DNA from: Rhodobacterales bacterium 32-67-9
GTDB lineage: Bacteria; Pseudomonadota; Alphaproteobacteria; Rhodobacterales; Rhodobacteraceae
DNA length: 64,000 nt
Direction: 5' to 3'
NCBI GenBank assembly: GCA_002280515.1
Contig: NCEA01000004.1
Location: 1 to 64,000 of the forward strand
This document shows positions 9,790 through 22,250 of this stretch, piece after piece. Numbering within the stretch: the stretch's first letter is position 1; every line of letters starts with the position of its first letter. Under the pieces are notes generated by a model that saw nothing but the letters and a program-made list of their open reading frames with translations, had not been told where the DNA came from and made no database searches. Position numbers and translations under genes: made by a program.

Positions 9790-10887
9790 CTATTCCTCCA
9801 TGACCAGATGGCCGTCCTCGTATGACCAGTGGGCCACCAGTTCCTGACCGATCTGCAACGGCAGATTTGCCAGATCCTCGTGGCTCTTCTGGATGCGGAT
9901 TTCCTGCCCGTCAGCGGTTTCCAGATAGATCGTGGCGGTCGCTCCGATGAATTCCTCGCCGATCATCCGAACGGGAAGGGTATTCACACGACCGGACGGG
10001 GGCGTCACGGCAAGATCGGTTTTCGTGTCGAGAACGGTCAGGGTCGCTGTTTGTCCGGCCGCGACGGGTTGCGGCATGCCCGCAGCACTGAGGCGCAATG
10101 CGCCCGCAGGGGTGTCGAGAGTGACCACACCGCCATCGCTCCCCGAAACCTTGCCGGTGAACATGTTCGACGACCCGAGGAAGCCGGCGACGAACCGCGT
10201 CCGGGGCGTGCGGTAGATTTCCTTCGGTGTGCCGATCTGCTCGATCTTGCCGCGACTCATGATCACGACCCTGTCGGCCATCGAGAAGGCCTCGGACTGG
10301 CTGTGCGTCACGTAGACGAAGGTGATGCCGGTCTCGCGCTGGAGGTTCTTCAGGACCGACTGCATCCGCACCTTGAGCGCTGCATCAAGCGCGGAAAGCG
10401 GCTCATCGAGAAGCAGGATCTCGGGTTCCACGACCAGGGAACGGGCCAGTGCCACGCGCTGCCGCTGGCCGCCCGAAAGTTGCGAGATGTTGCGGCTGGC
10501 GAACTCGGTGATCTGCATCCGGTCAAGCCACTGCTCGGCCTTGCGGCGACGCTCGGCCTTGCCGACGCCGCGCATCTTCAGCGCGAACTCGACATTCTCG
10601 ATCACGTTCAGGAACGGGAACAGCGCCAGGCTCTGCCAGACCATCGGCGTATCCCGGCTCCAGGTCGGCAAGTCGTTGATCGGCTTGCCGGAGAGGCGGA
10701 TCACGCCTTCGCTGGGGGCTTCGAGCCCTGCCAGCATGCGAAGCGTCGTCGTCTTGCCGCAACCCGACGATCCCATGATCGCGAGGAACTCTCCTTTGCC
10801 GATTTCGAAGTCCATGCGCTGCACGGCGACGAACTCGCCGAAGCGCTTGACCACGCCCTCGAAGGAAACAAGCGTGTCGTTCTTCAT
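9790..10887 (-). CDS. ABC transporter ATPase, spermidine/putrescine (PotA) type
   Basis: This 365-residue cytoplasmic ATPase would drive an importer. Walker A GSSGCGKTTTLRML is at about residues 39-52, the signature LSGGQRQRVALARSL at about 137, Walker B EILLLDEPLSAL at about 155, and the H-loop YVTHSQSEA at about 193. A C-terminal OB-fold/TOBE region follows (FVAGFLGSSNMFTGKV onward), as in the PotA/FbpC group. It starts 3 bp after the stop of the preceding permease gene. The four-gene order solute-binding protein, permease, permease, ATPase is complete. The substrate is inferred from the neighbouring creatininase and creatinase to be a guanidino compound such as creatinine or creatine; polyamine is the default alternative. 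Confidence 0.92.
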   Translation of the reverse strand: MKNDTLVSFEGVVKRFGEFVAVQRMDFEIGKGEFLAIMGSSGCGKTTTLRMLAGLEAPSEGVIRLSGKPINDLPTWSRDTPMVWQSLALFPFLNVIENVEFALKMRGVGKAERRRKAEQWLDRMQITEFASRNISQLSGGQRQRVALARSLVVEPEILLLDEPLSALDAALKVRMQSVLKNLQRETGITFVYVTHSQSEAFSMADRVVIMSRGKIEQIGTPKEIYRTPRTRFVAGFLGSSNMFTGKVSGSDGGVVTLDTPAGALRLSAAGMPQPVAAGQTATLTVLDTKTDLAVTPPSGRVNTLPVRMIGEEFIGATATIYLETADGQEIRIQKSHEDLANLPLQIGQELVAHWSYEDGHLVMEE

Positions 10888-10890
10888 GCT

Positions 10891-11730
10891 TTACTCCTGT
10901 TCGTCCGCGCCGGGACGGGCCTTGGCGCCGCGACCCGTCAGAAGTATCTGGGCGAGGATCACGAGCGTCATGGATGTGACGAAAACGAAGGTGCCGATGG
11001 CGTTGATCCGCGGGCTGACCTGGCCCTGCAGGAAGCCGAGCACCTTGACGGGCAAAGTCTCGTTCAGGCCCGAGACGAACCAGGCGATGGCGAACTCGTC
11101 GAAGGAGACCGCCATGGTGATGAAAAGCGCGCCGAAGATCGCGGGTTTGGCGAAGGGGATGATGACGTGCCGCATCGCCGCCCATTCGGAGGCGCCGAGG
11201 TTCCAGGCCGCCGCCTCAAGGTCCGGATCCATCTGGCTGAGCCGCAGCCGGATGATCGCCATCGCGAAGGGCGCGCAGATCACGACATGGGCGATGATGA
11301 CGGAGAGAGCATTGCCCGACAGGTTGATGCGCGAGAGATAGGCGAGCATGGCCAGCCCGAGGATCACGACCGGAATCGTCGGCGGCAGAAGCGCCAGCGC
11401 GAGGTAGACCTGCTTGCCGAAGAACCGGTAACGGAAATCGGTGTAGGCGGCCCCGAACCCGAGAGCCGTGGCGACGACGCCGACGATCACACCGACAAAC
11501 AACGTGTTGCGAAGGCCCTGCCAGACCAGCGGGTCCGAGGCGACGGCCCGATACCATTCGAGCGAGAACTGCCCGAGCGGAATCGAGGGAAACCGGTCCG
11601 AGTTGAACGAAAAGACGAAGCTCGCGGCAATCGGCGCGAAGACGAAGGCATAGCTGAGGACGATGTAGGCCAGAAGCGCGACATCGACGGCCCGGTTCCT
11701 GTTGATGCTGGCGGTGTCCTTGTCGCTCAT
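10891..11730 (-). CDS. ABC transporter permease (PotC type)
   Basis: The 279-residue inner-membrane protein has about six hydrophobic helices. The cytoplasmic EAA loop that docks on the ATPase is EAAAWNLGASEWAAMRHVIIP in its normal place in the C-terminal half. The start ATG 11730 is chosen because it overlaps the stop of the upstream permease as ATGA; the frame stays open further upstream but only inside that gene. It is the second membrane subunit of the PotB/PotC-like pair. Confidence 0.92.
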   Translation of the reverse strand: MSDKDTASINRNRAVDVALLAYIVLSYAFVFAPIAASFVFSFNSDRFPSIPLGQFSLEWYRAVASDPLVWQGLRNTLFVGVIVGVVATALGFGAAYTDFRYRFFGKQVYLALALLPPTIPVVILGLAMLAYLSRINLSGNALSVIIAHVVICAPFAMAIIRLRLSQMDPDLEAAAWNLGASEWAAMRHVIIPFAKPAIFGALFITMAVSFDEFAIAWFVSGLNETLPVKVLGFLQGQVSPRINAIGTFVFVTSMTLVILAQILLTGRGAKARPGADEQE

Positions 11731-12572
11731 TTCGTGCGCCCCTTGTAGGCAAAGCGGACTGCGGCGAAGGCCACGGCCATAAGCGTGCCGATCATGGTCA
11801 GTGCGATGACGGCCGCACGCGGCCACTGCTGACCCGATTTCGTCGTGTCGGTGATCAGGATCGACAAAGTCGTCGGGTCGCCGCCACCAAGGTAGATCGG
11901 GCTGACGAAGTCACCGAAGCTGAGGATGAAAGCGAACAGCGCCGCGATGACGAGACCGACCCGCGCCGACGGGATGATGACCGCGAAGACGGTGCGCAAA
12001 CGGCCACAGCGCAGGTTGTGCGCCGCCTCGATCAGGGTCCGGTCGATGAAGGCGAGGCTGAAAAGCTGCAAGAGTACGACAAGCGGGAAGGTCAGGGTGA
12101 GATAACCGATCATCGTCGCGCCGACGGTATTCAGAAGGCCGTAGGGGCCAAGGCCGACCCAGCCGAGCATCACGTTGATGATGCCGGCGTCCGACAGGAA
12201 GATCTGCCAGGAGTAGACGCGGACAAGGTAGCTGGTGAAGAACGGGATCACCATCAGGAAGACCGCCCAACGCCGCCCAGTCTCCGAGAGTTTGAAGGCA
12301 ATCGCATAGGAACAGGGGAACGCGAGGGCGCTGACCAAGGCGGCGGCGGCGGCCGACATGGCGAACGTGATGCCGTAGGCTTGCCAGAAGAGCGGGCGGC
12401 CGTACATCGTGACCCAGTTCACGGCGTCGATATCCGGCTGCATGCGGAAGTTCTTCACCGTCCAGAAGCTGAGCGCGACGAGAAACACCAGCGGAAAGAC
12501 AAAGAACAACAACTGCCAGATCAGGAGTGGCAGCGAGAAGGTCAAACCGTAGAGGGTGAGGGATCGGCGCAT
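11727..12572 (-). CDS. ABC transporter permease (PotB type)
   Basis: The 281-residue inner-membrane subunit has a first helix at residues 8-35 and five more. Its EAA loop reads EAAHNLRCGRLRTVFAVIIPS, keeping the EAA and the hydrophobic end but with Arg-Cys-Gly-Arg in place of the common Gly-Ala-Ser run. The last helix lies near the C-terminus before the basic end YKGRTK. It is separated from the solute-binding protein gene by a strong hairpin at 12603-12630, which probably lowers its expression relative to the binding protein. Confidence 0.92.
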   Translation of the reverse strand: MRRSLTLYGLTFSLPLLIWQLLFFVFPLVFLVALSFWTVKNFRMQPDIDAVNWVTMYGRPLFWQAYGITFAMSAAAAALVSALAFPCSYAIAFKLSETGRRWAVFLMVIPFFTSYLVRVYSWQIFLSDAGIINVMLGWVGLGPYGLLNTVGATMIGYLTLTFPLVVLLQLFSLAFIDRTLIEAAHNLRCGRLRTVFAVIIPSARVGLVIAALFAFILSFGDFVSPIYLGGGDPTTLSILITDTTKSGQQWPRAAVIALTMIGTLMAVAFAAVRFAYKGRTK

Positions 12573-12639: not shown

Positions 12640-13764
12640 TCAGGCGCCCTTGTATTCGGACCAGAAATCGTTCCAGTCTTCGAGGCTTTGCTGCACCGGC
12701 CACTGCCGGTATTTGATACGGCCGGCGCGGATCATGTCGATCACGTTGCCGGCGTCCTTGGTCATGCCCTGACGCTTCGCTTCGTCCGGGTTTTCGGTCT
12801 GCAGCACCTCCCAGCCCTTCTGGTTGGGGATGAGCGCGGGATAGGCGGCCATCTGGGCCGACTTCGCCTGACCCTTGGCCGAGGTGATGTACTGGATCCA
12901 CTTCTTCGCCAGATCGGCTTTCTGCGAACCCTTGCCGATCGAGAAACATTCCGACCACTGCAGACCGCCCTCTTCCGGGATGACCGAGCGGACCTTGGCG
13001 CCATTCTTCTCCAGCACGCCGGTGATCCAGTCGCCGATCCCGGCGAAGGCCAGCATCTGGCCGTCGTTCAAGGACGAGAAGGTGCCGCCATAGTCGAAGA
13101 AACCGCCGATCTGGGGCCGGAGCGACATGGTCTTGTCCTGGACCGCCTGCCAGGCGGCCCCGTCGATGTCGTAGGGATTTGCGTTTCCGCTCAGGAGGCT
13201 CATCTGACCGAGGTTCGGCAGATGCCAGTCGAAATGGCCGACCTTGCCCGCCAGCTTTTCGTTCCAGAAGACATTGTAGCTCGACGCTTCCGCTTCGGTC
13301 AGCGCATCCGTGTTGTAGGCGACACCGAGGAAACCGAACCGGGTGACGAGCGAGAAGAGCTTGCCGTCGCTCCAGTTGCCGGGGAAGTTCTGGAACTCGG
13401 GGAAGTAATCGGAAATGGCGTAGTCGTTCGGATCAAGCTCCTCGACATATCCCGCCTCGTTCAGCGCCTGGACATATTCGGCATCCGACAGGATCACGTC
13501 ATAGGTGCCGGCCGGCGATTGCGAGATGAGCCCCAGCATGTTGTCGCCGCCGGTGTAGTATTTCGGCACGAACTTGACGTTGTTCTCGGCCTCGAACTCG
13601 GCGACGATATCCGGCTCCGCGTGGCCGTACCAGGCGAGCATCGTCAACTCGGTCGGCGCCGCGAACGCGCGACGCGACAGCATCGGTGTCGCGAGCACGG
13701 CCGCGCCCGTGGCGAGCAGCGATCTGCGAGTGAAACCAATGTTCGGGGCTGTTGTTTTCGGCAT
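12640..13764 (-). CDS. ABC transporter solute-binding protein (PotD type), Tat-exported
   Basis: The 374-residue periplasmic binding protein starts with a twin-arginine signal (TRRSLLATGAAVLATPML... then a cleavage-like AFA near residue 37) and continues as a PotD/PotF-like extracellular binding fold: LTMLAWYGHAEPDIV, YDVILSDAEYVQALNEAGYVEELD, LPNLGQMSLLSGNANPYD, FAGIGDWITGVLEKNG. ATG 13764 is preferred over the in-frame ATG at 13791 because AGGGAGA precedes it at a normal distance. It heads the four-gene transporter operon. Its promoter region carries the putative LysR site at 13833-13851. Ligand inferred from context, not from residues. Confidence 0.9.
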   Translation of the reverse strand: MPKTTAPNIGFTRRSLLATGAAVLATPMLSRRAFAAPTELTMLAWYGHAEPDIVAEFEAENNVKFVPKYYTGGDNMLGLISQSPAGTYDVILSDAEYVQALNEAGYVEELDPNDYAISDYFPEFQNFPGNWSDGKLFSLVTRFGFLGVAYNTDALTEAEASSYNVFWNEKLAGKVGHFDWHLPNLGQMSLLSGNANPYDIDGAAWQAVQDKTMSLRPQIGGFFDYGGTFSSLNDGQMLAFAGIGDWITGVLEKNGAKVRSVIPEEGGLQWSECFSIGKGSQKADLAKKWIQYITSAKGQAKSAQMAAYPALIPNQKGWEVLQTENPDEAKRQGMTKDAGNVIDMIRAGRIKYRQWPVQQSLEDWNDFWSEYKGA

Positions 13765-13832
13765 GTTAATCTCCCTGTTATGCGCCAGCATTCATCTTTT
13801 CGCTTACGCTAGGCGAAGGAACCGCAGGTACA

Positions 13833-13851
13833 AAATCGGTTATTGAAATCG
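13833..13851 (-). promoter_or_regulatory. Putative LysR-type operator upstream of the transporter operon
   Basis: The 19-mer AAATCGGTTATTGAAATCG (plus-strand reading) matches the site in front of creatinase at 14 of 19 positions. On the minus strand its end coincides with the first base of a predicted -35 TTGTAC, followed by a 16-bp spacer and TAGCGT. It lies 69 bp upstream of the binding-protein ATG. This is the typical place for an activating LysR-family site. Confidence 0.45.
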
Positions 13852-13985
13852 CAGGATTTGCAGCCCTTATGACGCTGCCGAACCTGCTGCGGCCAAAGGT
13901 AATGCCGCGTTCGCCGATAAGGCGCGCGTCCTGAGACAGGCCACGAGACTTTGACGCGCCGGCCTGCCGGACCGCCATGTCACGC

Positions 13986-14873
13986 CTACAGCGGCCTGAC
14001 GTTGGAACCGACACTGTCGAGACCCGCCACGAGATCGCTGACAAGTTGCAGGCCGGCCACCGAAAGGCGTGGATGCTTGTAAAAGAGACCCACCCTCAAC
14101 GGTTCGAGCGGCGGGAACCCTTCGGCTTCGTCGAGGACGCGCATCCCCGGCAGCATCGTGGCCTTGGTCAGCGCGGTCACGCACAATCCGTTGAGTACGG
14201 CGTTCTGAAGGCCGGAAATGCCCGGCCCGGTATAGACGATGCGCCAACGCCGTTCGGCGGCGTCAAGCGCCTGAATCATCCGCGCCCGGTAGTCGCAGCC
14301 CTCGGGATGCGCGCCCAAAGGTACGGGGCGGTGTGCGACATTCTTGAACTCTTCGGCGGCGGCCCAGATGGGTTGTTCGCCCCAGGCGCGCGACAGGTAC
14401 GGCATTCGCGTGTTGGGCATCATCGCGACAATGACGTCGAGATCGTCCGCCCTCAGGTGCTGATGAAGCTCCCGGCTGAGATCGCAGTGGATTTCAAGCT
14501 CCACATCCGGGTGTTCCTGGCTGAAGCCGGTGATCGCGCGTTGCAGGAAGGCGACAGCATAGTCCGTCGGCAGCCCGATCCGAAGAACGCCGGTCTTGTC
14601 GGAACGGTGGAAATAGCTCACCGCCTCGTCATTGATCCGGATCATCTCGCGCGCGTAACTCAGGAGCGCTTCGCCGGCGGACGTCGGCTGGATGGTGCGA
14701 CCTTCCTGCGAGAGAAGCGGCGCCCGGACCAGTTCCTCGAGCCGTCGGATCTGAAGCGAGATCGCCGGCTGGCTTCGTCCCAGAAGCGCCCCCGCCTTGG
14801 AATGACCGCCAAGCTCGACCACAGCGATGAAGGTCCGAAGGAGATCTGTCGGAAGGTTGGTGATGGCGGCCAT
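13986..14873 (-). CDS. LysR-family transcriptional regulator of the creatinine genes
   Basis: The 295-residue protein has the LysR winged helix-turn-helix at its N-terminus (LLRTFIAVVELGGHSKAGALLGRSQPAISLQIRRLEEL, residues 9-46) and a periplasmic-binding-like effector domain from about residue 90 (GVLRIGLPTDYAVAFLQRAI). ATG 14873 is chosen because it places the HTH at the usual distance; upstream in-frame codons run into the intergenic control region. It diverges from creatininase over 97 bp and lies just upstream of the transporter operon on the same strand. Local control of transporter, creatininase and creatinase is inferred from a shared upstream motif. The coinducer is unknown; creatinine or creatine is a reasonable guess. 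Confidence 0.9.
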   Translation of the reverse strand: MAAITNLPTDLLRTFIAVVELGGHSKAGALLGRSQPAISLQIRRLEELVRAPLLSQEGRTIQPTSAGEALLSYAREMIRINDEAVSYFHRSDKTGVLRIGLPTDYAVAFLQRAITGFSQEHPDVELEIHCDLSRELHQHLRADDLDVIVAMMPNTRMPYLSRAWGEQPIWAAAEEFKNVAHRPVPLGAHPEGCDYRARMIQALDAAERRWRIVYTGPGISGLQNAVLNGLCVTALTKATMLPGMRVLDEAEGFPPLEPLRVGLFYKHPRLSVAGLQLVSDLVAGLDSVGSNVRPL

Positions 14874-14894
14874 GTATTTGCGCCTGAAATCGAG

Positions 14895-14913
14895 GGATTG
14901 GGACAATCTATTT
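14895..14913 (+). promoter_or_regulatory. Putative LysR-type operator between lysR and creatininase
   Basis: A match (13 of 19 positions to the creatinase copy) to the shared motif is present on the minus strand. It contains a perfect dyad GATTG-GGA-CAATC at 14896-14908. Toward creatininase it directly abuts a possible -35 (TTCTTA or overlapping TTTCTT) with a 16-bp spacer to a T-rich -10. It lies 57 bp upstream of the creatininase ATG and 21 bp upstream of the lysR ATG, so one site could serve activation and autoregulation. Confidence 0.5.
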
Positions 14914-14970
14914 TTCTTATGGATGGCCGGCAACGTATTTTTTGGGCGAACACCTTTCGCAGGAGCAGTC

Positions 14971-15747
14971 ATGCCTCTCAGCAGCGCCTTCGCCTCCGAA
15001 CTGACCTGGCCCGACTATGACGTGGCCGTGCGGAACGGTCAGACGCCGATCCTGATCCCCATCGGCTCGATGGAGCAACACGGGCATCACATGCCGCTGC
15101 ATGTGGACGTGCTGCTGCCGACCGAGTTCGCCCGCCGCGTCGCGCTGGAAATTGGCGCCCTCGTCGCGCCGCCCTTTACCTACGGCTACAAGTCGCACCA
15201 GAAATCGGGGGGCGGCAACCATCTGCCCGGCACGACGAGCCTCGACGGCGCGACGCTGGTCGCCGCACTCAAGGATGTCGTCAAGGAATTCGCCCGTCAC
15301 GGCGTCCGAAAGATCTGCCTCGTCAACGGGCATTTCGAGAATTCCTGGTTCATCGTCGAGGGAATCGATCTCGCGCTGCGCGAGCTGCGCTGGGACGGGA
15401 TCACTGACGTCAAGGTCGTCGTCCTCTCCTACTGGGACTTCGTCCACAAGGAGGCCATAGCCCGGCTCTATCCCGGCGGCTTCCCCGGCTGGGACGTGGA
15501 GCACGGCGGGGTTCTGGAAACCTCGCTGATGCTGGCGCTGCATCCTGAACACGTCCACCTCGACCGCGCCGTGGACCACCCGCCCGCGACCTTCCCGCCC
15601 TATGATGTCTACCCGGTCAAGCGCGAATGGACGCCCTCGTCCGGCACCCTGTCGTCACCGAAGGAGGCCTCGGTGGAAAAGGGGCATATCCTCCTCGACG
15701 TCTGCACCACCGGCATCGTCGGCGCGCTGCGGGTCGAGTTCGGCTGA
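14971..15747 (+). CDS. crnA: Creatininase (creatinine amidohydrolase, EC 3.5.2.10)
   Basis: The enzyme opens the creatinine ring to creatine, reversibly. The 258-residue protein resembles Pseudomonas creatininase along its length: LTWPDYDVAV, SMEQHGHHMPLHVDVLLPTE, YGYKSHQKSGGGNHLPGTTS, LVNGHFENSWFIVEGIDLALREL, VVLSYWDFV, VEHGGVLETSLMLAL and DHPPATFPPYDV. The metal ligands of that enzyme are kept as Glu35, His37, Asp46, His121 and Glu123. The Tyr-Lys-Ser-x-Gln-Lys-Ser-Gly-Gly-Gly block is specific to true creatininases within the wider family. AGGAG precedes ATG 14971. It diverges from lysR and converges on creatinase. Confidence 0.94.
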   Translation: MPLSSAFASELTWPDYDVAVRNGQTPILIPIGSMEQHGHHMPLHVDVLLPTEFARRVALEIGALVAPPFTYGYKSHQKSGGGNHLPGTTSLDGATLVAALKDVVKEFARHGVRKICLVNGHFENSWFIVEGIDLALRELRWDGITDVKVVVLSYWDFVHKEAIARLYPGGFPGWDVEHGGVLETSLMLALHPEHVHLDRAVDHPPATFPPYDVYPVKREWTPSSGTLSSPKEASVEKGHILLDVCTTGIVGALRVEFG

Positions 15748-15772
15748 TCGATCTTCCTCGACTGAGACCTTG

Positions 15773-15794
15773 GGGGGCTTCGGCCCCCTTTTCT
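15773..15794 (+). terminator. Rho-independent terminator after creatininase
   Basis: A GGGGGC / GCCCCC stem closed by a TTCG tetraloop is followed by TTTTCTTTT. It lies 25 bp past the creatininase stop, in the 116-bp gap between two convergent genes. Confidence 0.85.
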
Positions 15795-15819
15795 TTTGCA
15801 CCCCACCCGGGAATGCGAA

Positions 15820-15844
15820 AAGGGGCCGGATGACCCGGCCCCTT
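15820..15844 (-). terminator. Rho-independent terminator after creatinase
   Basis: A perfect 10-bp stem AAGGGGCCGG / CCGGCCCCTT with a 5-nt loop sits 20 bp past the creatinase stop. Read on the minus strand it ends in a TTTT run. Back-to-back with the creatininase terminator, it insulates the convergent pair. Confidence 0.75.
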
Positions 15845-15863
15845 CGGTCTGCCCTTCGAAAAA

Positions 15864-17078
15864 TCAGTTCCGGATCACGTTGTGTTCCGGGCCGAACGGG
15901 AAGCCGGTGATGTTCTCGGCCCCGTCCTCGGTCACGATCAGGATGTCGTGCTCCCGGTAGCCGCCGGCGCCGGGCACGCCTTCGGGCAGCATGACCATCG
16001 GTTCCATCGACACCACCATTCCGGGCTTCAGTTCCGTCTCGATGTCCTCGCGAAGCTCGACCCCGGCTTCGCGTCCATAGTAGTGGCTGAGGACACCGAA
16101 GGAGTGGCCATAGCCGAAGGAGCGGTATTTCAGCAGATCCCATTGCCGGTACATGTGGTTGAGTTCCAGCGCGATCTCGTTGCACTTGGCCCCCGGCTTG
16201 ATCAGTTCAAGCCCGCGGCGGTGGACGGCCACGTTCTTCTCCCAGATGTCGAGGCTCGCGTCATCGACATGGTCGCAGAAGAGCGTCCGCTCCAGCGCGG
16301 TATAGTAGCCGAAGATCATCGGGAAAGTGTTGAGCGACAGGATATCGCCGGACTCGATCTTCTTGTTGGTGACCGGGTTGTGCGCGCCGTCGGTATTGAT
16401 GCCGGACTGGAACCAGGTCCAGGTGTCCATGAGTTCCACGAAAGGGAAGGAATTCGCAATCTCGCGGATCATCGCGTTGGTGGACGCGATGGCCACCTCG
16501 TGCTCGGGAACGCCCGCGCCGATTGCAGCGGCGCAGGCCGCGCCGCCGACATCGCAGATGCGCGCGCCGGTCCGGATCAGCGTGTGCTCTTCCGCCGACT
16601 TGATCGAGCGCATCCACATCGAGGGTTGCCCGATGTCGACGAACTCGACACCCGGAAGGGCCGCTTCCAATGCCTTGCGGTAGTCAAGGTGGACATGGTC
16701 GAACTCGATCCCCAGCCGCTTGACGCCCGGCGTCAGCTGGCGCACCGCGCGATAGAAGTTGTCGCGCCGCCAGTCGGTATAAGTGATGTTGTTGCCGAAG
16801 CTGCGGCGCCAGGGCTGGCCGCCGTCGATGCCGGCCGAGATGGTGGTGGCGGCATTCTGGGTGATGACCATGCCATACTTGCGGCCGAAATAGCAGTAGA
16901 GCCAGCCGGAATAGTAGTTGATGCAATGGTACGAGGTGAAGAGCGCCGCATCGACGTTGTTCTCCGCCATCCATCTGCGCACATCGTCCTGCCGCCTTTG
17001 CATTTCGGCGTCCGAGAAGGGCGAATAGTCCTTGTCGCCGTTGTGCCATTCCATAACGTGGAGCATGTCGTCGGTCAT
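15864..17078 (-). CDS. creA: Creatinase (creatine amidinohydrolase, EC 3.5.3.3)
   Basis: Creatinase hydrolyses creatine to sarcosine and urea. The 404-residue protein has the M24 'pita-bread' fold and matches the Pseudomonas putida enzyme block by block: DAALFTSYHCINYYSGWLYC, SAGIDGGQPWRRSFG, SIKSAEEHTLIRTGARI, MDTWTWFQSGINTDGAHNP, ILSLNTFPMIFGYYTALERTL, FGYGHSFGVLSHYYGREAG and GMVVSMEPMVMLPEGVPGAGG. His233 falls at the catalytic base (His232 in P. putida) and Glu263 at the conserved active-site Glu. Metal ligands of M24 aminopeptidases are absent, as expected for creatinase. It is transcribed toward creatininase; its upstream gap carries a copy of the shared operator motif. Confidence 0.96.
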   Translation of the reverse strand: MTDDMLHVMEWHNGDKDYSPFSDAEMQRRQDDVRRWMAENNVDAALFTSYHCINYYSGWLYCYFGRKYGMVITQNAATTISAGIDGGQPWRRSFGNNITYTDWRRDNFYRAVRQLTPGVKRLGIEFDHVHLDYRKALEAALPGVEFVDIGQPSMWMRSIKSAEEHTLIRTGARICDVGGAACAAAIGAGVPEHEVAIASTNAMIREIANSFPFVELMDTWTWFQSGINTDGAHNPVTNKKIESGDILSLNTFPMIFGYYTALERTLFCDHVDDASLDIWEKNVAVHRRGLELIKPGAKCNEIALELNHMYRQWDLLKYRSFGYGHSFGVLSHYYGREAGVELREDIETELKPGMVVSMEPMVMLPEGVPGAGGYREHDILIVTEDGAENITGFPFGPEHNVIRN

Positions 17079-17141
17079 CTGATGGGCCTTTCCTGTGGTC
17101 TAACCGCTGGCGAAAGCGTAGCGGCGGCCGTGCGACGACAG

Positions 17142-17160
17142 AAATTTGTTATCGCAATCG
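17142..17160 (-). promoter_or_regulatory. Putative LysR-type operator upstream of creatinase
   Basis: AAATTTGTTATCGCAATCG (plus reading) is the best-looking copy of the shared motif. On the minus strand it ends on the first base of a candidate -35 TCTGTC, with a 16-bp spacer to TACGCT, the same geometry as at the transporter promoter. It lies 64 bp upstream of the creatinase ATG. The rest of the 227-bp gap 17079-17305 holds no gene. Confidence 0.5.
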
Positions 17161-17305
17161 AACCATTTGCGCTTCTTCTTGCCGTAGGTCCGCGCCACGG
17201 GGTTCCCGGCACGGCGCCGAACCTTGTCCGGGAAACCGGCCTCTGCGTTCGTCTCGATGCCTGCAAGGGACCGTGACGCCGGGCTTTTCGGCCCGCCCCG
17301 CCCCC

Positions 17306-18718
17306 TTACCTGCGTGCCGGGATCGGCGGCGTGACTTCGGGCGGCATCGGGCAGCGGTAGGGTTCCCGCGCCAGATGCGCCGCGTGTTCGGCCTTCGCCG
17401 CGGCCAGCAATGCGGGCCGCTCGAAAAGGTCGCGCCCGGTGGTCGCCATGACCTTCGCGGCATGGACCATACCCTTGTGCGCCGCCGGCGCCTTGCCCTG
17501 CGCGGTCAGTTGCCACGAATGGAACGGCGTTCCGATGGCGCAGGTCGCGACCCAGGCCTGCACCGTCGGCACCGCCCAACTTACATCACCCACATCCGTC
17601 GATCCCATCGCCGCTTGCGGCGCCGCGTCCAACGGCACGACGAAATCGCAAAGGGTCAGAGCCGGATCGACCGGCCGGCCGGTGCGGCGGAAGGTGTCTG
17701 CGATATGTTCCTCGGTCAGGGTCGCACGGATCGCCTCGGCGAAGGGGATGTCGGACGCATCGAAATCTGGCGCGCCGAGACGGTCCATGTTGGCCTGCAT
17801 CGCCTCCTCCAGCACCCGGTTGCCGAGCAGGTCCGAGACCGCCGAGACGACCTTCGCCTCCACCGTCGTCTCGGTCATCAGGGCCGCCCCTTCCGCGATC
17901 TTGCGCACCCGCTCCACCAGCCCGTTGAGGTCGCGCAGTCGCCGGGTCCGGATCAACTGCCGCACCGTCGCCTTTGCCGGCACCACGTTCGGCGCCATGC
18001 CGCCGGCATCGAGATAGGCGTAATGCACCCGGGCATCGTCGGGCATGTGTTCGCGCAGATAGTTGACGCCGACATTCATCAGCTCCACCGCGTCGAGTGC
18101 GGAGCGCCCCAGTTCCGGCGATCCTGCCGCATGGGCGGCACGGCCGTGGAAGGTGAAGTCGATGCGGGTATTGGCCAGAGAATTCGCCTCGAACACCCCG
18201 GTGTAATCCGCCGGATGCCAGCTGATCGCCGCATCCACGTCGTCGAAGAGGCCCGCGCGCACCATGAAGGTCTTGGCCGCGCCGCCTTCCTCGGCCGGGC
18301 AGCCGTAATAGCGGACCCGTCCCGGTAGGCGCTTTTCGGCCAGCCAGTCGCGCAAGGCTACCGCAGCCATCAACGCCGCCGAGCCGAGAAGGTTGTGCCC
18401 GCAGCCATGGCCGAACCGCCCCAAGGGACGCTCTTCTGCCACGCCCGGCTCCTGGCCCAGTTCCGGCAGCGCGTCGTATTCGCCGAGGATCGCGATCACT
18501 GGCCCGCCGGCGCCCCATTCGCCCATCACCGCCGTCGGAATTCCGGCTAGGTCGCGGCTGATCCGAGCGCCCGTGGCCTCCAGCATCTCGGTATGGGCGG
18601 CGCAGCTTTCATATTCGGTATAGGCGACTTCCGGGGTGTCGAAGACGCGGTCCGCCAACCCGGTGAACGCACCCCGGTGCGCCTCGACGATATCCCAAAG
18701 CCTGTCGCTGTTCTTCAT
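17306..18718 (-). CDS. M20-family amidohydrolase (AbgB-like)
   Basis: The 470-residue metallohydrolase is closest to the AbgB/p-aminobenzoyl-glutamate utilization B group of peptidase family M20D. Key parts are ILGEYDALPELGQEPG (about 75), the metal-binding GRFGHGCGHNLLGSAA (about 101), the Glu-Glu of YGCPAEEGGAAKTFM (about 137), ISWHPADYTG (about 165) and a dimerisation domain with FHGRAAHAAGSPELGRSALD (about 190). The metal ligand His near residue 434 lies in PFHSWQLTAQG. It diverges from the TetR-family gene over 132 bp, so that regulator may control it. The substrate is unknown; an N-acylated or amide-linked guanidino compound or amino acid would fit the island but is inference. Confidence 0.85.
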   Translation of the reverse strand: MKNSDRLWDIVEAHRGAFTGLADRVFDTPEVAYTEYESCAAHTEMLEATGARISRDLAGIPTAVMGEWGAGGPVIAILGEYDALPELGQEPGVAEERPLGRFGHGCGHNLLGSAALMAAVALRDWLAEKRLPGRVRYYGCPAEEGGAAKTFMVRAGLFDDVDAAISWHPADYTGVFEANSLANTRIDFTFHGRAAHAAGSPELGRSALDAVELMNVGVNYLREHMPDDARVHYAYLDAGGMAPNVVPAKATVRQLIRTRRLRDLNGLVERVRKIAEGAALMTETTVEAKVVSAVSDLLGNRVLEEAMQANMDRLGAPDFDASDIPFAEAIRATLTEEHIADTFRRTGRPVDPALTLCDFVVPLDAAPQAAMGSTDVGDVSWAVPTVQAWVATCAIGTPFHSWQLTAQGKAPAAHKGMVHAAKVMATTGRDLFERPALLAAAKAEHAAHLAREPYRCPMPPEVTPPIPARR

Positions 18719-18812
18719 GGCTAACCTCCGCTATACGGCCCCCAGACTGCCGCGTTCGCGCTTTGGGCGCCAGATGCGAATCCCCCTTGCGGGCGATTGC
18801 GGTTCGGTCAAA

Positions 18813-18826
18813 TATACAAACGTATA
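18813..18826. promoter_or_regulatory. Putative TetR-family operator in divergent promoter
   Basis: TATAC-AAAC-GTATA is a 14-bp inverted repeat with perfect 5-bp arms in the 132-bp gap between the M20 amidohydrolase and the tetR gene. It stands out as the only AT-rich part of the gap and lies 25 bp before the tetR ATG, overlapping where its -10 should be. That is the classic position for autorepression. Confidence 0.5.
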
Positions 18827-18850
18827 ATTCAATGCGGAGCACTTGCCGGC

Positions 18851-19489
18851 ATGCCCTCCCAGCGGCGCAAATTCACCAGGGAAGAGCCCGAGAGCCGTCG
18901 CGCCGACCTCATCGCGGCGACGCTCGACCTCATGGCTGATGCCGGGCCGGCAGAGACGACGGTGCGCGCCATCGCCGAGGAGGCGGGACTGTCGCAGGGC
19001 ATGATCCGGCACCATTTCTCGTCCAAGGAAGACCTGATCAACGCCGCCTACCAGGCGCATATGGCCGGCCAGCTTGAAGGCAGCGAACGCTCGGTCGCCG
19101 GCGATACGGCTAGGGCGCGGCTTGCCCGCTTCGTCACCGCCTCGCTGACCTCGCCGGTCGTCGACCCGCGCGCGCTGTCGCTCTGGGCGGCCTTCATTCA
19201 CATGGTCCGGCGCGATCCGGCGATGCGCGCGACGCATGAAGAGAATTACCTTGCCTATCGCGACAGGCTGGAGGCGCTGGTCGCCGCCACCCTGGCCGAA
19301 TCCGGGCGGACCGCAACATCGGAAGAGTTGCGCCGTCTCGCGATTGCCTGCAACGCGGTGATCGACGGTCTCTGGCTCGAAGGCGGGGCGTTGCCCGATG
19401 CCTTCGCGGCGGGAGAGATCGAGGCGATCGGCCGCGCGTCCGTCGCAGCACTTCTCGGCCTGCCGCTCGACGATGGAACAGAAGAATGA
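18851..19489 (+). CDS. TetR/AcrR-family regulator (BetI-like)
   Basis: The 212-residue repressor has an N-terminal TetR HTH (RADLIAATLDLMADAG... TTVRAIAEEAGLSQGMIRHHFSSKEDLINAAYQAHM, residues 16-67). The C-terminal ligand-binding domain is of the BetI_C type, with ALSLWAAFIHMVRRDP and the WLEGG segment. ATG 18851 is preferred over an upstream in-frame codon because the HTH then starts at the usual distance. Its stop overlaps the aminotransferase ATG (ATGA), so it is cotranscribed with aruH-aruI. It probably represses this operon and the divergent M20 gene through the palindrome at 18813-18826. Confidence 0.88.
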   Translation: MPSQRRKFTREEPESRRADLIAATLDLMADAGPAETTVRAIAEEAGLSQGMIRHHFSSKEDLINAAYQAHMAGQLEGSERSVAGDTARARLARFVTASLTSPVVDPRALSLWAAFIHMVRRDPAMRATHEENYLAYRDRLEALVAATLAESGRTATSEELRRLAIACNAVIDGLWLEGGALPDAFAAGEIEAIGRASVAALLGLPLDDGTEE

Positions 19490-20676
19490 GATACGCACCG
19501 ATCATCGACCGGCTCGCCGGGCTCGGCGGCGCCAAGTGGGAACTGCATGCCGCAGCCGTCGAGATGCGGCGGTCGGGCCGTGACGTCATCGACATGACGA
19601 TCGGCAATCCCGACGTGCCGGCGCCGCAGACGCTGGTCGACCGTGCGACGGAGGCGATGCGGTCGGGCCGGACCGAATATTCGACCGGGCGCGGGGAGGA
19701 GACTTTGCGCGCGGCCCTTGCCGACCGTTATACCCAGCGTACAGGGCGGCCCGTCGGCATGGATCAGGTGCTGTGCTTTCCCGGTACCCAGACCGCGCTC
19801 TACACCGTGATGATGGGCGTGGCCGGGCCGGGGACCGAAGTGCTGGTCGGCGACCCGATGTATGCGACCTACGAAGCGGTGATCCGAGCCAGCGGCGCGG
19901 AGCCGGTGCCAGTTCCGCTGCGCCCAGCGAACGACTTTCGCATCGCCGCCGAGGATATCGCCGCGCGGATCACCGAACGCAGCCGGGCAATCCTTCTCAA
20001 CACCCCGCACAATCCGACCGGCGCGGTGCTGACCGCCGCCGATATCGACGCGATCGGGGCAGTGGCAAGGGAGCACGACCTCTGGATCGTCTCGGACGAG
20101 GTCTACGAGGAACTGGTCTTCGACGGCATCGCCTTCGTCTCGCCCTTTGACAGGGCGGCGTTCGCGGACCGCACCGTCTGCGTTGCCTCGATCTCGAAGT
20201 CCCATGCCGCGCCGGGGTTCCGGTCCGGCTGGTCCGTCAGCTCGGCGGAATGCGCGGAGCGTCTGCTGCCGCTTTCTGAAACCATACTCTTTGGCAACCA
20301 GCCCTTCATCGCCGACATGACGGCCGCAGCGGTCGCCGAACCTTCTTCAGTCGCCGCCGGAATGCGCAGCCGTTTCGCGGCGCGGGTGAAGTATCTCGAC
20401 GACCGGCTGACGCAGGAAACCGTGCTTCGGGTGCATCGGCCAGAGGCGGGGATGTTTGCGCTGATCGACGTGTCTGCCACAGGGCAGGGCGACCGCGACT
20501 ATGCGCTCGGCCTTCTCCACTCGGGCGGGGTCGCGGTGATGCCGGGGTCCGCCTTCGGCGACACGCTGAAGGGCTGGGTCCGGCTGGCGCTGACGGTGGA
20601 TGACGCGCGGTTCCGCGACGCCTGCGACCGGATCGTCGCCCATGCGCTGGCTTTGAGAGAGGGAGAGCGGGCATGA
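19486..20676 (+). CDS. aruH: Aminotransferase, probable arginine:pyruvate transaminase (AruH-like)
   Basis: The 396-residue class I/II PLP-dependent aminotransferase starts MRYAPIIDRLAGLGGAKWELH, like Pseudomonas aeruginosa AruH (MRYSDFTQRIAG...). PLP-contact elements are NTPHNPTGAVL (about 172), SDEVYEELVFDG (about 203), the Schiff-base Lys238 in ASISKSHAAPGFRSGW, and a C-terminal Arg in KGWVRLALT. AruH transfers the amino group of arginine to pyruvate giving 2-ketoarginine and alanine. It overlaps tetR upstream and the AruI-like gene downstream by 4 bp, a coupling that strongly supports the arginine role. A broader specificity is possible. Confidence 0.78.
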   Translation: MRYAPIIDRLAGLGGAKWELHAAAVEMRRSGRDVIDMTIGNPDVPAPQTLVDRATEAMRSGRTEYSTGRGEETLRAALADRYTQRTGRPVGMDQVLCFPGTQTALYTVMMGVAGPGTEVLVGDPMYATYEAVIRASGAEPVPVPLRPANDFRIAAEDIAARITERSRAILLNTPHNPTGAVLTAADIDAIGAVAREHDLWIVSDEVYEELVFDGIAFVSPFDRAAFADRTVCVASISKSHAAPGFRSGWSVSSAECAERLLPLSETILFGNQPFIADMTAAAVAEPSSVAAGMRSRFAARVKYLDDRLTQETVLRVHRPEAGMFALIDVSATGQGDRDYALGLLHSGGVAVMPGSAFGDTLKGWVRLALTVDDARFRDACDRIVAHALALREGERA

Positions 20677-22250
20677 CCACGGTCGGCGAAGCGCTGGTGA
20701 AAGCCCTGGAATCACGCGGAGTCCGTGTCGTCTTCGGCATCCCCGGCGTGCATACGGTGGAGCTTTACCGTGGCCTCTCCGGCTCCTCGATCCGTCATGT
20801 CACGCCCCGCCACGAACAGGGCGCGGGCTTCATGGCCGACGGTTACGCCCGCGTCTCGGGTCAGCCCGGCGTCGCCTTCGTGATCACCGGTCCGGGGCTG
20901 ACCAACACGCTGACGCCGATGGGGCAGGCGCGGGCGGATTCGGTGCCGATGCTGGTGCTTTCCGGCGTCAACCGGCGCGATACGCTGGGTAAGGGACTTG
21001 GCCACCTGCACGAACTGCCCGACCAGAACGGCATGGCCGCGCTGGTGGCCTTGTCGTCCGAACGGGTGGAAGAACCCCCGGCCCTCGGCCCCGTGCTCGA
21101 CCGGGCTTTCGCGGGCTTCAATGGCGGCCGGCCCGGCCCGCGCCATATCGAGGTGCCAATCGACGTGATGGCACTTCCTGCCGAGCCTGTGGCGCCGCAG
21201 GCTACACCCGCCCCGACGCTTCCCGCCCCCGATCTCATCGCTGACGCCACGGCGCGGCTGGCACGGGCCAGCACCCCGCTGATCCTTGTCGGAGGCGGGG
21301 CGAAACGCGCGGGGGATTCCCTTCGTCTTCTGTCCGAGGCGCTCGACGCGCCGGTTGTCCAGACGGTGAACGGGCGCGGCCTGATGCACGGCCACCCTCT
21401 CACCGTGCCGGCGAGCCCGAGTCTGGAGCCGGTTCGCGACCTCATCCGCGGTGCCGATATCGTGCTCGCCATCGGCACGGAATTCGGCCCCACCGATTAC
21501 GACATGTACGGGCGCGGCGGCCTGCCCTGGCCGAAAGAGCTGATCCGGGTGGAGATCGACGCGGCGCAGCTTGCCCGTCACCCCGCCGACCTCGCGCTTC
21601 AGGGCCATGCCGAGGCGATCCTGCCGGCGCTGGTCGCCCTGCTGCCCGGCAGGCGCGCCACCGACGGCGCGGCACGGGCCGAAGCCGCCCGCACCGGCGC
21701 ATGGGTGGCACTCGATGAGACGACGCGCGCCCAGATCGCGATCCTCAACACGGTGCGTAATACCCTGCCGGGATCAATCTTCGTCGGCGATTCCACGCAA
21801 GCGATCTACGCCGGAAACCTCTATTACGACCACGACCGGCCCGGCGGCTGGTTCAACGCCGCGACCGGCTTCGGCGCGCTCGGCTTCGCGATCCCGGCGG
21901 CCATCGGCGCCGCTCTTGCCGCGCCGGACGCGCCGGTGATCTGCCTGTCCGGCGACGGTGGTGCTCAGTTTACTCTGCCGGAGTTGATGACGGCGGTGGA
22001 TGAACGCCTGCCGATCATCTTCCTGATCTGGAACAATCGCGCCTATGGCGAGATTGCCGCGTCGATGGAGGCGGTCGGTGTCGAGGTTATCGGCTGCCAC
22101 CCGACCCCGCCCGATTTCGAGGCCGTCGCGCGGTCTTGCGGCATGCCCTACCGGCGGACCGGGATGTCGCCCGCAGATGTCGCCACCACGCTGCGCGGTT
22201 CTTGGCCCGCAGCCGGGCCAGTGATGATCGAAATTGACGCGGGGCGCTGA
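20673..22250 (+). CDS. aruI: ThDP-dependent 5-guanidino-2-oxopentanoate decarboxylase (AruI)
   Basis: AruI decarboxylates 2-ketoarginine to 4-guanidinobutyraldehyde in the arginine transaminase pathway. The 525-residue protein has the three-domain ThDP fold. Its N-terminal part (FGIPGVHTVELYRGL, then RHEQGAGFMADGYARVSG with the cofactor-activating Glu48, then FVITGPGLTN) closely follows P. aeruginosa AruI. The ThDP/Mg motif is CLSGDGGAQFTLPEL ... FLIWNNRAYGEI in the C-terminal domain, preceded by FNAATGFGALGFAIPAAIGAAL. General acetolactate synthases lack the GVHTxELYRGL block. It follows the AruH-like gene with an ATGA overlap and converges on the LOG gene 2 bp away. Confidence 0.85.
   Translation: MTTVGEALVKALESRGVRVVFGIPGVHTVELYRGLSGSSIRHVTPRHEQGAGFMADGYARVSGQPGVAFVITGPGLTNTLTPMGQARADSVPMLVLSGVNRRDTLGKGLGHLHELPDQNGMAALVALSSERVEEPPALGPVLDRAFAGFNGGRPGPRHIEVPIDVMALPAEPVAPQATPAPTLPAPDLIADATARLARASTPLILVGGGAKRAGDSLRLLSEALDAPVVQTVNGRGLMHGHPLTVPASPSLEPVRDLIRGADIVLAIGTEFGPTDYDMYGRGGLPWPKELIRVEIDAAQLARHPADLALQGHAEAILPALVALLPGRRATDGAARAEAARTGAWVALDETTRAQIAILNTVRNTLPGSIFVGDSTQAIYAGNLYYDHDRPGGWFNAATGFGALGFAIPAAIGAALAAPDAPVICLSGDGGAQFTLPELMTAVDERLPIIFLIWNNRAYGEIAASMEAVGVEVIGCHPTPPDFEAVARSCGMPYRRTGMSPADVATTLRGSWPAAGPVMIEIDAGR

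Follow-up and report, generated by a model that had tools for sequence, protein, structure and literature searches.

Genes for the breakdown of creatinine and creatine lie together in the first 64,000 nucleotides of contig NCEA01000004.1 of Rhodobacterales bacterium 32-67-9 (assembly GCA_002280515.1), which is the whole stretch of DNA analysed here and is called the window. The cluster comprises three presumed transcription units, an ATP-binding cassette (ABC) transporter, a creatininase gene that is divergent from a lysR gene, and a creatinase gene, and each of these is preceded by a copy of the same short sequence box. Judged from sequence comparison, the three sites are very probably operators of the cluster's own LysR-type transcriptional regulator (LTTR), which would most likely activate the genes by which creatinine and creatine are taken up and degraded. 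As is usual for an LTTR, the regulator gene, coding for HTH_1 and LysR_substrate domains, adjoins its presumed target and diverges from it.

An earlier reading of this DNA (the original prediction) had proposed a 19-bp motif at these three promoters with identical spacing to the -35 hexamer, as the site of one regulon. Re-reading the sequence gave exactly the same positions: 13833-13851 before the transporter (AAATCGGTTATTGAAATCG), 14895-14913 before creatininase (AAATAGATTGTCCCAATCC, read on the minus strand) and 17142-17160 before creatinase (AAATTTGTTATCGCAATCG). In the direction of the genes, the copies read GATTTCAATAACCGATTT, GATTGGGACAATCTATTT and GATTGCGATAACAAATTT, respectively, and all three share the core GATTNNNAYAAYNNATTT. 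Pairwise identity over 19 positions is 15 for transporter and creatinase, 13 for creatininase and creatinase, and 12 for transporter and creatininase; the original prediction had given 13-14 matches to the creatinase copy. In the three copies the ATG lies 57, 63 and 68 bp from the 18-mer, in line with the 57-69 bp proposed. In alignments of the sites, conservation extends beyond the 19 bp, and the element has the form AAT (or TTAT/TCAT)-N6-ATT-N10-ATTT, with AT-N11-AT inside. The dyad GATTG-GGA-CAATC noted beside lysR is indeed present at 14896-14908 and is LysR-box-like in the creatininase copy, but the other promoters do not share it: AT-N11-AT occurs in nearly all sites, and the longer GATTG-N3-CAATC only in the creatininase copy and some of its orthologs. 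A search of the window with the 19-letter consensus of the original prediction, allowing three mismatches, returned only two of the three copies, where shuffled sequences lead one to expect 0.07 matches. A weak CGATTGCG at 18794-18801 near a tetR gene, already suspected of being fortuitous, was not among the window matches with up to three mismatches; it was rejected as a fourth site and is probably a chance likeness.

To follow the box in other genomes, the upstream regions of orthologous clusters were compared. Relatives of the LysR were present in 11 of 248 genomes of the family and 7 of 22 of the genus, and relatives of the creatininase in 18 of 390 genomes of the order, the window's own genome being counted each time. 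From the best 80 of 142 relatives at named loci, 66 entered the promoter mismatch counts: 41 in set 1, mostly Rhodobacterales with a LysR 68-94% identical to that of the window (including metagenome-assembled genomes, MAGs, labelled only Proteobacteria, Pseudomonadota or Geminicoccaceae), and 25 in set 2, mostly Rhizobiales with 56-64% identity (including Amaricoccus and an Acidobacteria MAG). Loci were skipped for creatinase in 7 of 41 cases in set 1 and 3 of 25 in set 2, and in set 2 also for the transporter (3 of 25) and creatininase (1 of 25). The named loci overlap in part with the other genomes sampled and include close relatives, so their counts are not independent.

Gene maps gave three cluster types. 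In type A, to which the window belongs, transporter, creatininase and creatinase form separate units. The box is kept before creatininase and the transporter, and usually before creatinase, in Defluviimonas, Paracoccus, Rhodobacter, Mesorhizobium, Rhizobium and others, and these orthologs mostly carry a TA of a candidate -10 hexamer 21-22 bp downstream of it. Besides the window, this conservation was seen in 13 type A clusters, 11 of which have creatinase alongside. For a permutation test, the consensus was fixed from the window alone and compared with 2000 permuted consensuses of the same letters, the closest ortholog (L049) being omitted. The mean number of mismatches at the best site was 1.17 for creatininase (12 loci), 1.50 for creatinase (10 loci) and 1.00 for the transporter (12 loci), where permuted consensuses averaged 5.2-5.3 and none of the 2000 was as good at any of the three promoters. 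The permease genes inside the transporter operon were at background, with 6.25 and 6.58 mismatches (697 and 469 of 2000 permutations as good). In set 1, sites with at most two mismatches were found for 38 of 41 creatininase, 28 of 34 creatinase and 40 of 41 transporter genes, and in set 2, sites with at most three mismatches for 24 of 24, 11 of 22 and 22 of 22, respectively. Alignment of orthologous upstream regions had been named beforehand as the comparison that could refute the motif; it showed conservation at all three promoters, weakest at creatinase in the mostly Rhizobiales set. The motif is thus real, its coordinates and its conservation both being confirmed.

The conserved columns also define the geometry of the promoters. 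T-N11-A was present in 41 of 42 creatininase, 33 of 35 creatinase and 42 of 42 transporter sites of set 1 plus the window, in 24 of 24, 17 of 22 and 22 of 22 sites of set 2, and in 12 of 12 creatininase and 12 of 12 creatinase sites of type B (without transporter), counts that are biased upward because the T and the A belong to the consensus by which the sites were located; in MAFFT alignments, these columns are conserved in nearly all rows. A second T-N11-A, 9 bp downstream, occurs in 84-100% of sites in five promoter classes; it was not found as a class feature at set 1 creatinase, set 1 transporter or type B creatinase promoters. In the window, 21 bp separate the box from TAGCGT (transporter), 21 from TACGCT (creatinase) and 22 from TATTTT (creatininase). 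Of the spacing originally proposed, it is this distance to the -10 that holds best, whereas the -35 hexamers abutting the box are poor, matching TTGACA at one to three of six positions with spacers of 16-18 bp (best matches 3, 2 and 3). The frequency of the -10 across set 1 and the window is listed in Table 1; these offset counts exclude sites with more than four mismatches, by which 2 of 35 creatinase sites were dropped, and 3 of 22 in set 2. At offset 21, TA was found in all 12 type B creatininase sites and 75% of 12 type B creatinase sites (counts that took in L176-L180), and in all 22 transporter and 79% of 19 creatinase sites of set 2. The conserved position of the -10 would place the centre of T-N11-A near -43.

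Whether the box goes with the creatinine enzymes or with the regulator can be judged from clusters of other composition. In type B (e.g. Roseovarius), creatininase and transporter follow each other in the same direction in one run, and creatinase lies downstream of lysR. Boxes are present before creatininase (mean 1.86 mismatches, 1 of 2000 permutations as good) and creatinase (2.57, 3 of 2000), each at 7 loci, and there is no clear box before the transporter gene (mean 5.50 at 6 loci, 98 of 2000 as good; 4-7 mismatches in 10 loci). In type C, a related LysR (46-56% identity) is accompanied by a transporter, and creatininase and creatinase are absent from the stretch examined for each locus. 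In 14 of 14 of these loci, genes for a BtpA-like protein, below the Pfam cut-off for BtpA, and a phosphoribosyltransferase-domain protein lie beside the LysR. The box was found upstream of both the BtpA-like gene (mean 2.64 mismatches, 3 of 2000 as good) and the transporter (3.36, 1 of 2000), and by our reading of the alignments the best match fell outside the aligned element in 2 of 14 regions on each side. The test took in L168, L169 and L171-L175, and omitted L167 and L181 despite their type C enzyme genes; in these two loci, the genes next to the LysR gave no match to such a transporter. Conversely, three creatininase homologs (44-48% identity) without this LysR, taken from four distant homologs, have no box (mean 6.00 mismatches). 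Since type C keeps the box and the three LysR-less homologs are without it, the box tracks lysR and not the creatinine enzymes, and with type B it appears that it goes both with the regulator and with the starts of units. This supports its assignment as an operator of this LysR. In the order sample, window included, 14 of 14 creatininases at least 75% identical to that of the window adjoin either this lysR or one related to it (47-94% identity); one LysR relative (L157, 62% identity) has none of these genes beside it.

The type C loci (L052-L058, L167-L169, L171-L175 and L181, e.g. L055:8456-10786) offer a lead into an unassigned pathway, which perhaps serves nucleoside or nucleobase use. Homologs of the window's LysR with 48-86% identity were also seen on 14 plasmid records (H1-H14), including Paracoccus, Mesorhizobium and Ensifer, so the regulator may be mobile between replicons, perhaps together with the cluster. 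Where annotation was present, close homologs on these records were named only 'LysR substrate-binding domain-containing protein' or 'LysR family transcriptional regulator'.

The draft genome (3,718,328 bases, 93.6% complete) was scanned for further copies with consensus patterns instead of a weight matrix. The core GATTNNNAYAAYNNATTT gave three matches without mismatch, none with one and 32 with two, and the reversed pattern as a control gave 11 with up to two. With the upstream AAT added, the resulting 26-letter pattern returned the same three exact sites and, elsewhere, one site with one mismatch and ten with two (control, 1). The motif is therefore not at background frequency elsewhere in the genome, as the original prediction had proposed to check, although uniqueness by itself is no test because the patterns were built from the three sites; the test is conservation. 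The one-mismatch site, C6:61927-61952, lies at the start of a gene for an oxidase linked to flavin adenine dinucleotide (Pfam FAD_binding_4 and FAD-oxidase_C), which we take to be GlcD-like. It sits inside a different palindrome, AATTGGT...ACCAATT, and was not counted as a regulon member because it is probably the operator of another regulator; a site similar to this palindrome also occurs in a genome of the same genus (G267). No site with up to two mismatches was found near the sarcosine oxidase alpha genes at C4:215268 and C32:40945 (above the cut-off) and C55:36052 (just below it), the nearest being about 10 kb away, on C4, so sarcosine oxidation seems to be outside the regulon, which appears to be local. 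Three overlapping two-mismatch matches were observed at C47:53827-53866, directly upstream of a distant LysR paralog.

Several observations weigh against the reading of the boxes as operators of the local LysR. The centre of T-N11-A would lie near -43, and not near -65 as is typical of LysR regulatory sites. The creatininase promoters of set 2 have no clear TA at a shared offset (29% of 24, at 22). The creatinase box of set 2 is weak, with 3 of 22 sites at six mismatches next to the 11 with at most three; in set 1, among 34 creatinase sites, one has five and another seven mismatches, and one relative (L093) has a poor transporter site with four. Blind -35/-10 scoring upstream of lysR, shown for five loci, preferred the promoter pair that we propose for this gene only in the window; at L111 the result was shifted by one base, and in the other three loci shown the proposed pair was not the best. 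Finally, orthologous sites are not independent samples, so the permutation counts are not strict probabilities.

That the regulator binds these boxes as a repressor of the three units, with an effector lifting repression, would agree with the box touching the -35 region at all three promoters, since polymerase could be obstructed by a protein bound there. However, the -35 hexamers at usable spacing match TTGACA so poorly that the promoters look activator-dependent, and activators prevail among LysR regulators encoded beside a catabolic target. Activation is described both for PltR, whose gene diverges from its target (PMC3382589), and for PnpM (PMC5603801). We regard repression as unlikely. 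It is less likely still that the box serves another regulator, or is an A/T-rich promoter element to which no dedicated regulator belongs, while the LysR acts elsewhere. The element is A/T-rich and stands just upstream of promoters, and binding of the LysR here is a prediction; yet the box follows lysR across different gene contents, as in type C, and was not found at the three LysR-less homologs, it is unique in the genome, where a general promoter element would recur, and the permuted consensuses retained the same letters. Looking at the three window sites only, with 13 and 12 of 19 positions shared between the creatininase copy and the creatinase and transporter copies, one might think of a chance likeness of A/T-rich stretches, but conservation over dozens of clusters at a fixed geometry refutes this and leaves it next to no probability. 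The proposal that these are sites of one regulon, supported by conservation at three promoters, rarity in the genome and linkage of the box to lysR, is therefore retained.

With the LysR as a probable activator, the following mechanism can be proposed. The regulator would bind an element of about 26-35 bp consisting of an A/T-rich triplet, N6, ATT, N10 and ATTT, with AT-N11-AT within, which ends where the -35 hexamer is expected, and the bound protein would most likely recruit RNA polymerase to three promoters that are weak on their own. The likely inducer is creatinine, creatine or a related metabolite. Creatinine is converted via creatine to sarcosine and urea in two enzymatic steps; induction would thus provide uptake by the ABC transporter, ring opening by creatininase, and cleavage to sarcosine and urea by creatinase. 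The transporter is a likely creatinine or creatine importer in view of its co-location and common box. Because the creatininase operator covers the -10 of the candidate divergent lysR promoter, the regulator probably keeps its own production in check. Among 42 loci (window and set 1), the lysR promoter has the form TTGC-N19/20-TAGATW in 21, is TATATA/TATAAA-like in 13 and differs in 8. A wider generalization, possible but somewhat short of probable, is that this LysR subfamily uses one compact operator at the -35 region across Alphaproteobacteria, centred near -43, in place of the usual two sites near -65 and -35, and that a second T-N11-A often follows roughly one helical turn further downstream. 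The subfamily would govern two uptake-plus-enzyme modules, one for creatinine and creatine and one undescribed, BtpA-like/phosphoribosyltransferase-like, both with a PotD-like ABC importer.

Table 1. Predicted regulatory features and genes of the creatinine/creatine cluster (window coordinates; -10 frequencies refer to set 1 plus the window)
Feature	Position	Strand	Basis
Predicted LysR operator of ABC transporter unit, AAT-N6-GATTTCAATAACCGATTT	13833..13858	-	Sequence, genome scan, ortholog conservation
Predicted LysR operator of creatininase, AAT-N6-GATTGGGACAATCTATTT, T14898-N11-A14910	14888..14913	+	Sequence, genome scan, ortholog conservation
Predicted LysR operator of creatinase, AAT-N6-GATTGCGATAACAAATTT	17142..17167	-	Sequence, genome scan, ortholog conservation
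Candidate -10 TAGCGT, transporter promoter	13806..13811	-	TANNNT at offset 21 in 95% of 42 sites
Candidate -10 TATTTT, creatininase promoter	14936..14941	+	TA at offset 22 in 64% of 42 sites
Candidate -10 TACGCT, creatinase promoter	17115..17120	-	TANNNT at offset 21 in 91% of 33 sites
Candidate lysR promoter TTGCCG-17-TAGATT, -10 (14905-14910) inside creatininase operator	14905..14933	-	Sequence reading
ABC transporter substrate-binding protein, PotD-like, SBP_bac_8	12640..13764	-	Profile matches
Two permeases and ATPase of the same transporter, PotB/C/A-like	9790..12572	-	Profile matches
LysR-type regulator, LrhA-like, HTH_1 and LysR_substrate, presumed binder	13986..14873	-	Profile matches
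Creatininase, TIGR04448 equivalog	14971..15747	+	368 bits vs cut-off 235
Creatinase (creatine amidinohydrolase)	15864..17078	-	PDB 7yto, 867 bits over all 404 residues

The creatinase, for which 7yto is the best PDB match, matches the three distinct PDB sequences named creatine amidinohydrolase (E values from 1.7e-260 to 4.1e-176), and judged by their matches, the two genes code for a true creatininase and a true creatinase, as expected of a creatinine/creatine catabolic cluster. The family matches of the PotABCD-like transporter are polyamine-transporter-like and below the NCBIfam cut-offs. The LysR resembles LrhA in sequence with 138 bits, far under the 530-bit cut-off of that family. Further along the window (17306-22250), an M20 amidohydrolase gene and a BetI-like TetR gene diverge, and behind the latter come genes for an aminotransferase and a thiamine-diphosphate enzyme; none of these four genes was matched in the orthologous loci searched.

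Among the papers listed in searches on this pathway, a selection with subscription journals mostly outside it, none was recognised from its title or abstract opening as naming a LysR-type regulator of creatininase or creatinase, and LysR control of creatinine and creatine genes, of an ordinary kind and well conserved, has apparently not yet been described. With the cluster, a regulator, an operator and a regulon of alphaproteobacterial creatinine and creatine breakdown become open to testing, and if the inducer is confirmed, the regulator-promoter pair could be used as a creatinine sensor. The abstract opening on the sarcosine oxidase locus of Bacillus thuringiensis (PMC4941409) concerns a neighbouring pathway, that of sarcosine, and a different step, under control of Sigma54 and SoxR, and mentions no LysR box.

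Closer parallels are found in the LTTR consensus T-N11-A, as in the lys box of PltR (PMC3382589) and the regulatory binding site of PnpM (PMC5603801), the typical LysR regulatory site being at about -65 (PMC5603801). The boxes studied here are similar in that the regulator gene adjoins its target, one copy is divergent, T-N11-A is flanked as AT-N11-AT, the site lies just upstream of the promoter, and several units of one pathway share one type of box. They differ in position, since the PltR site spans -74 to -53 and that of PnpM -80 to -64, whereas here the predicted centre is near -43, and in the overlapping second T-N11-A 9 bp downstream in several promoter classes. At the level of function, the nearest counterpart is AmtR of creT-crnA in Corynebacterium glutamicum, which likewise controls creatinine and creatine genes including a transporter; AmtR is a TetR-family nitrogen repressor that recognises CTAT-N6-ATAG, and the transporter belongs to the major facilitator superfamily (MFS), whereas the window has a local LysR and an ABC system (PMC8864220). 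Roseobacter denitrificans is reported to grow on creatine without the known MFS carrier (PMC8864220), and if the wider generalization on the LysR subfamily is right, the ABC transporter would be the creatine/creatinine importer missing from marine relatives that lack this carrier.

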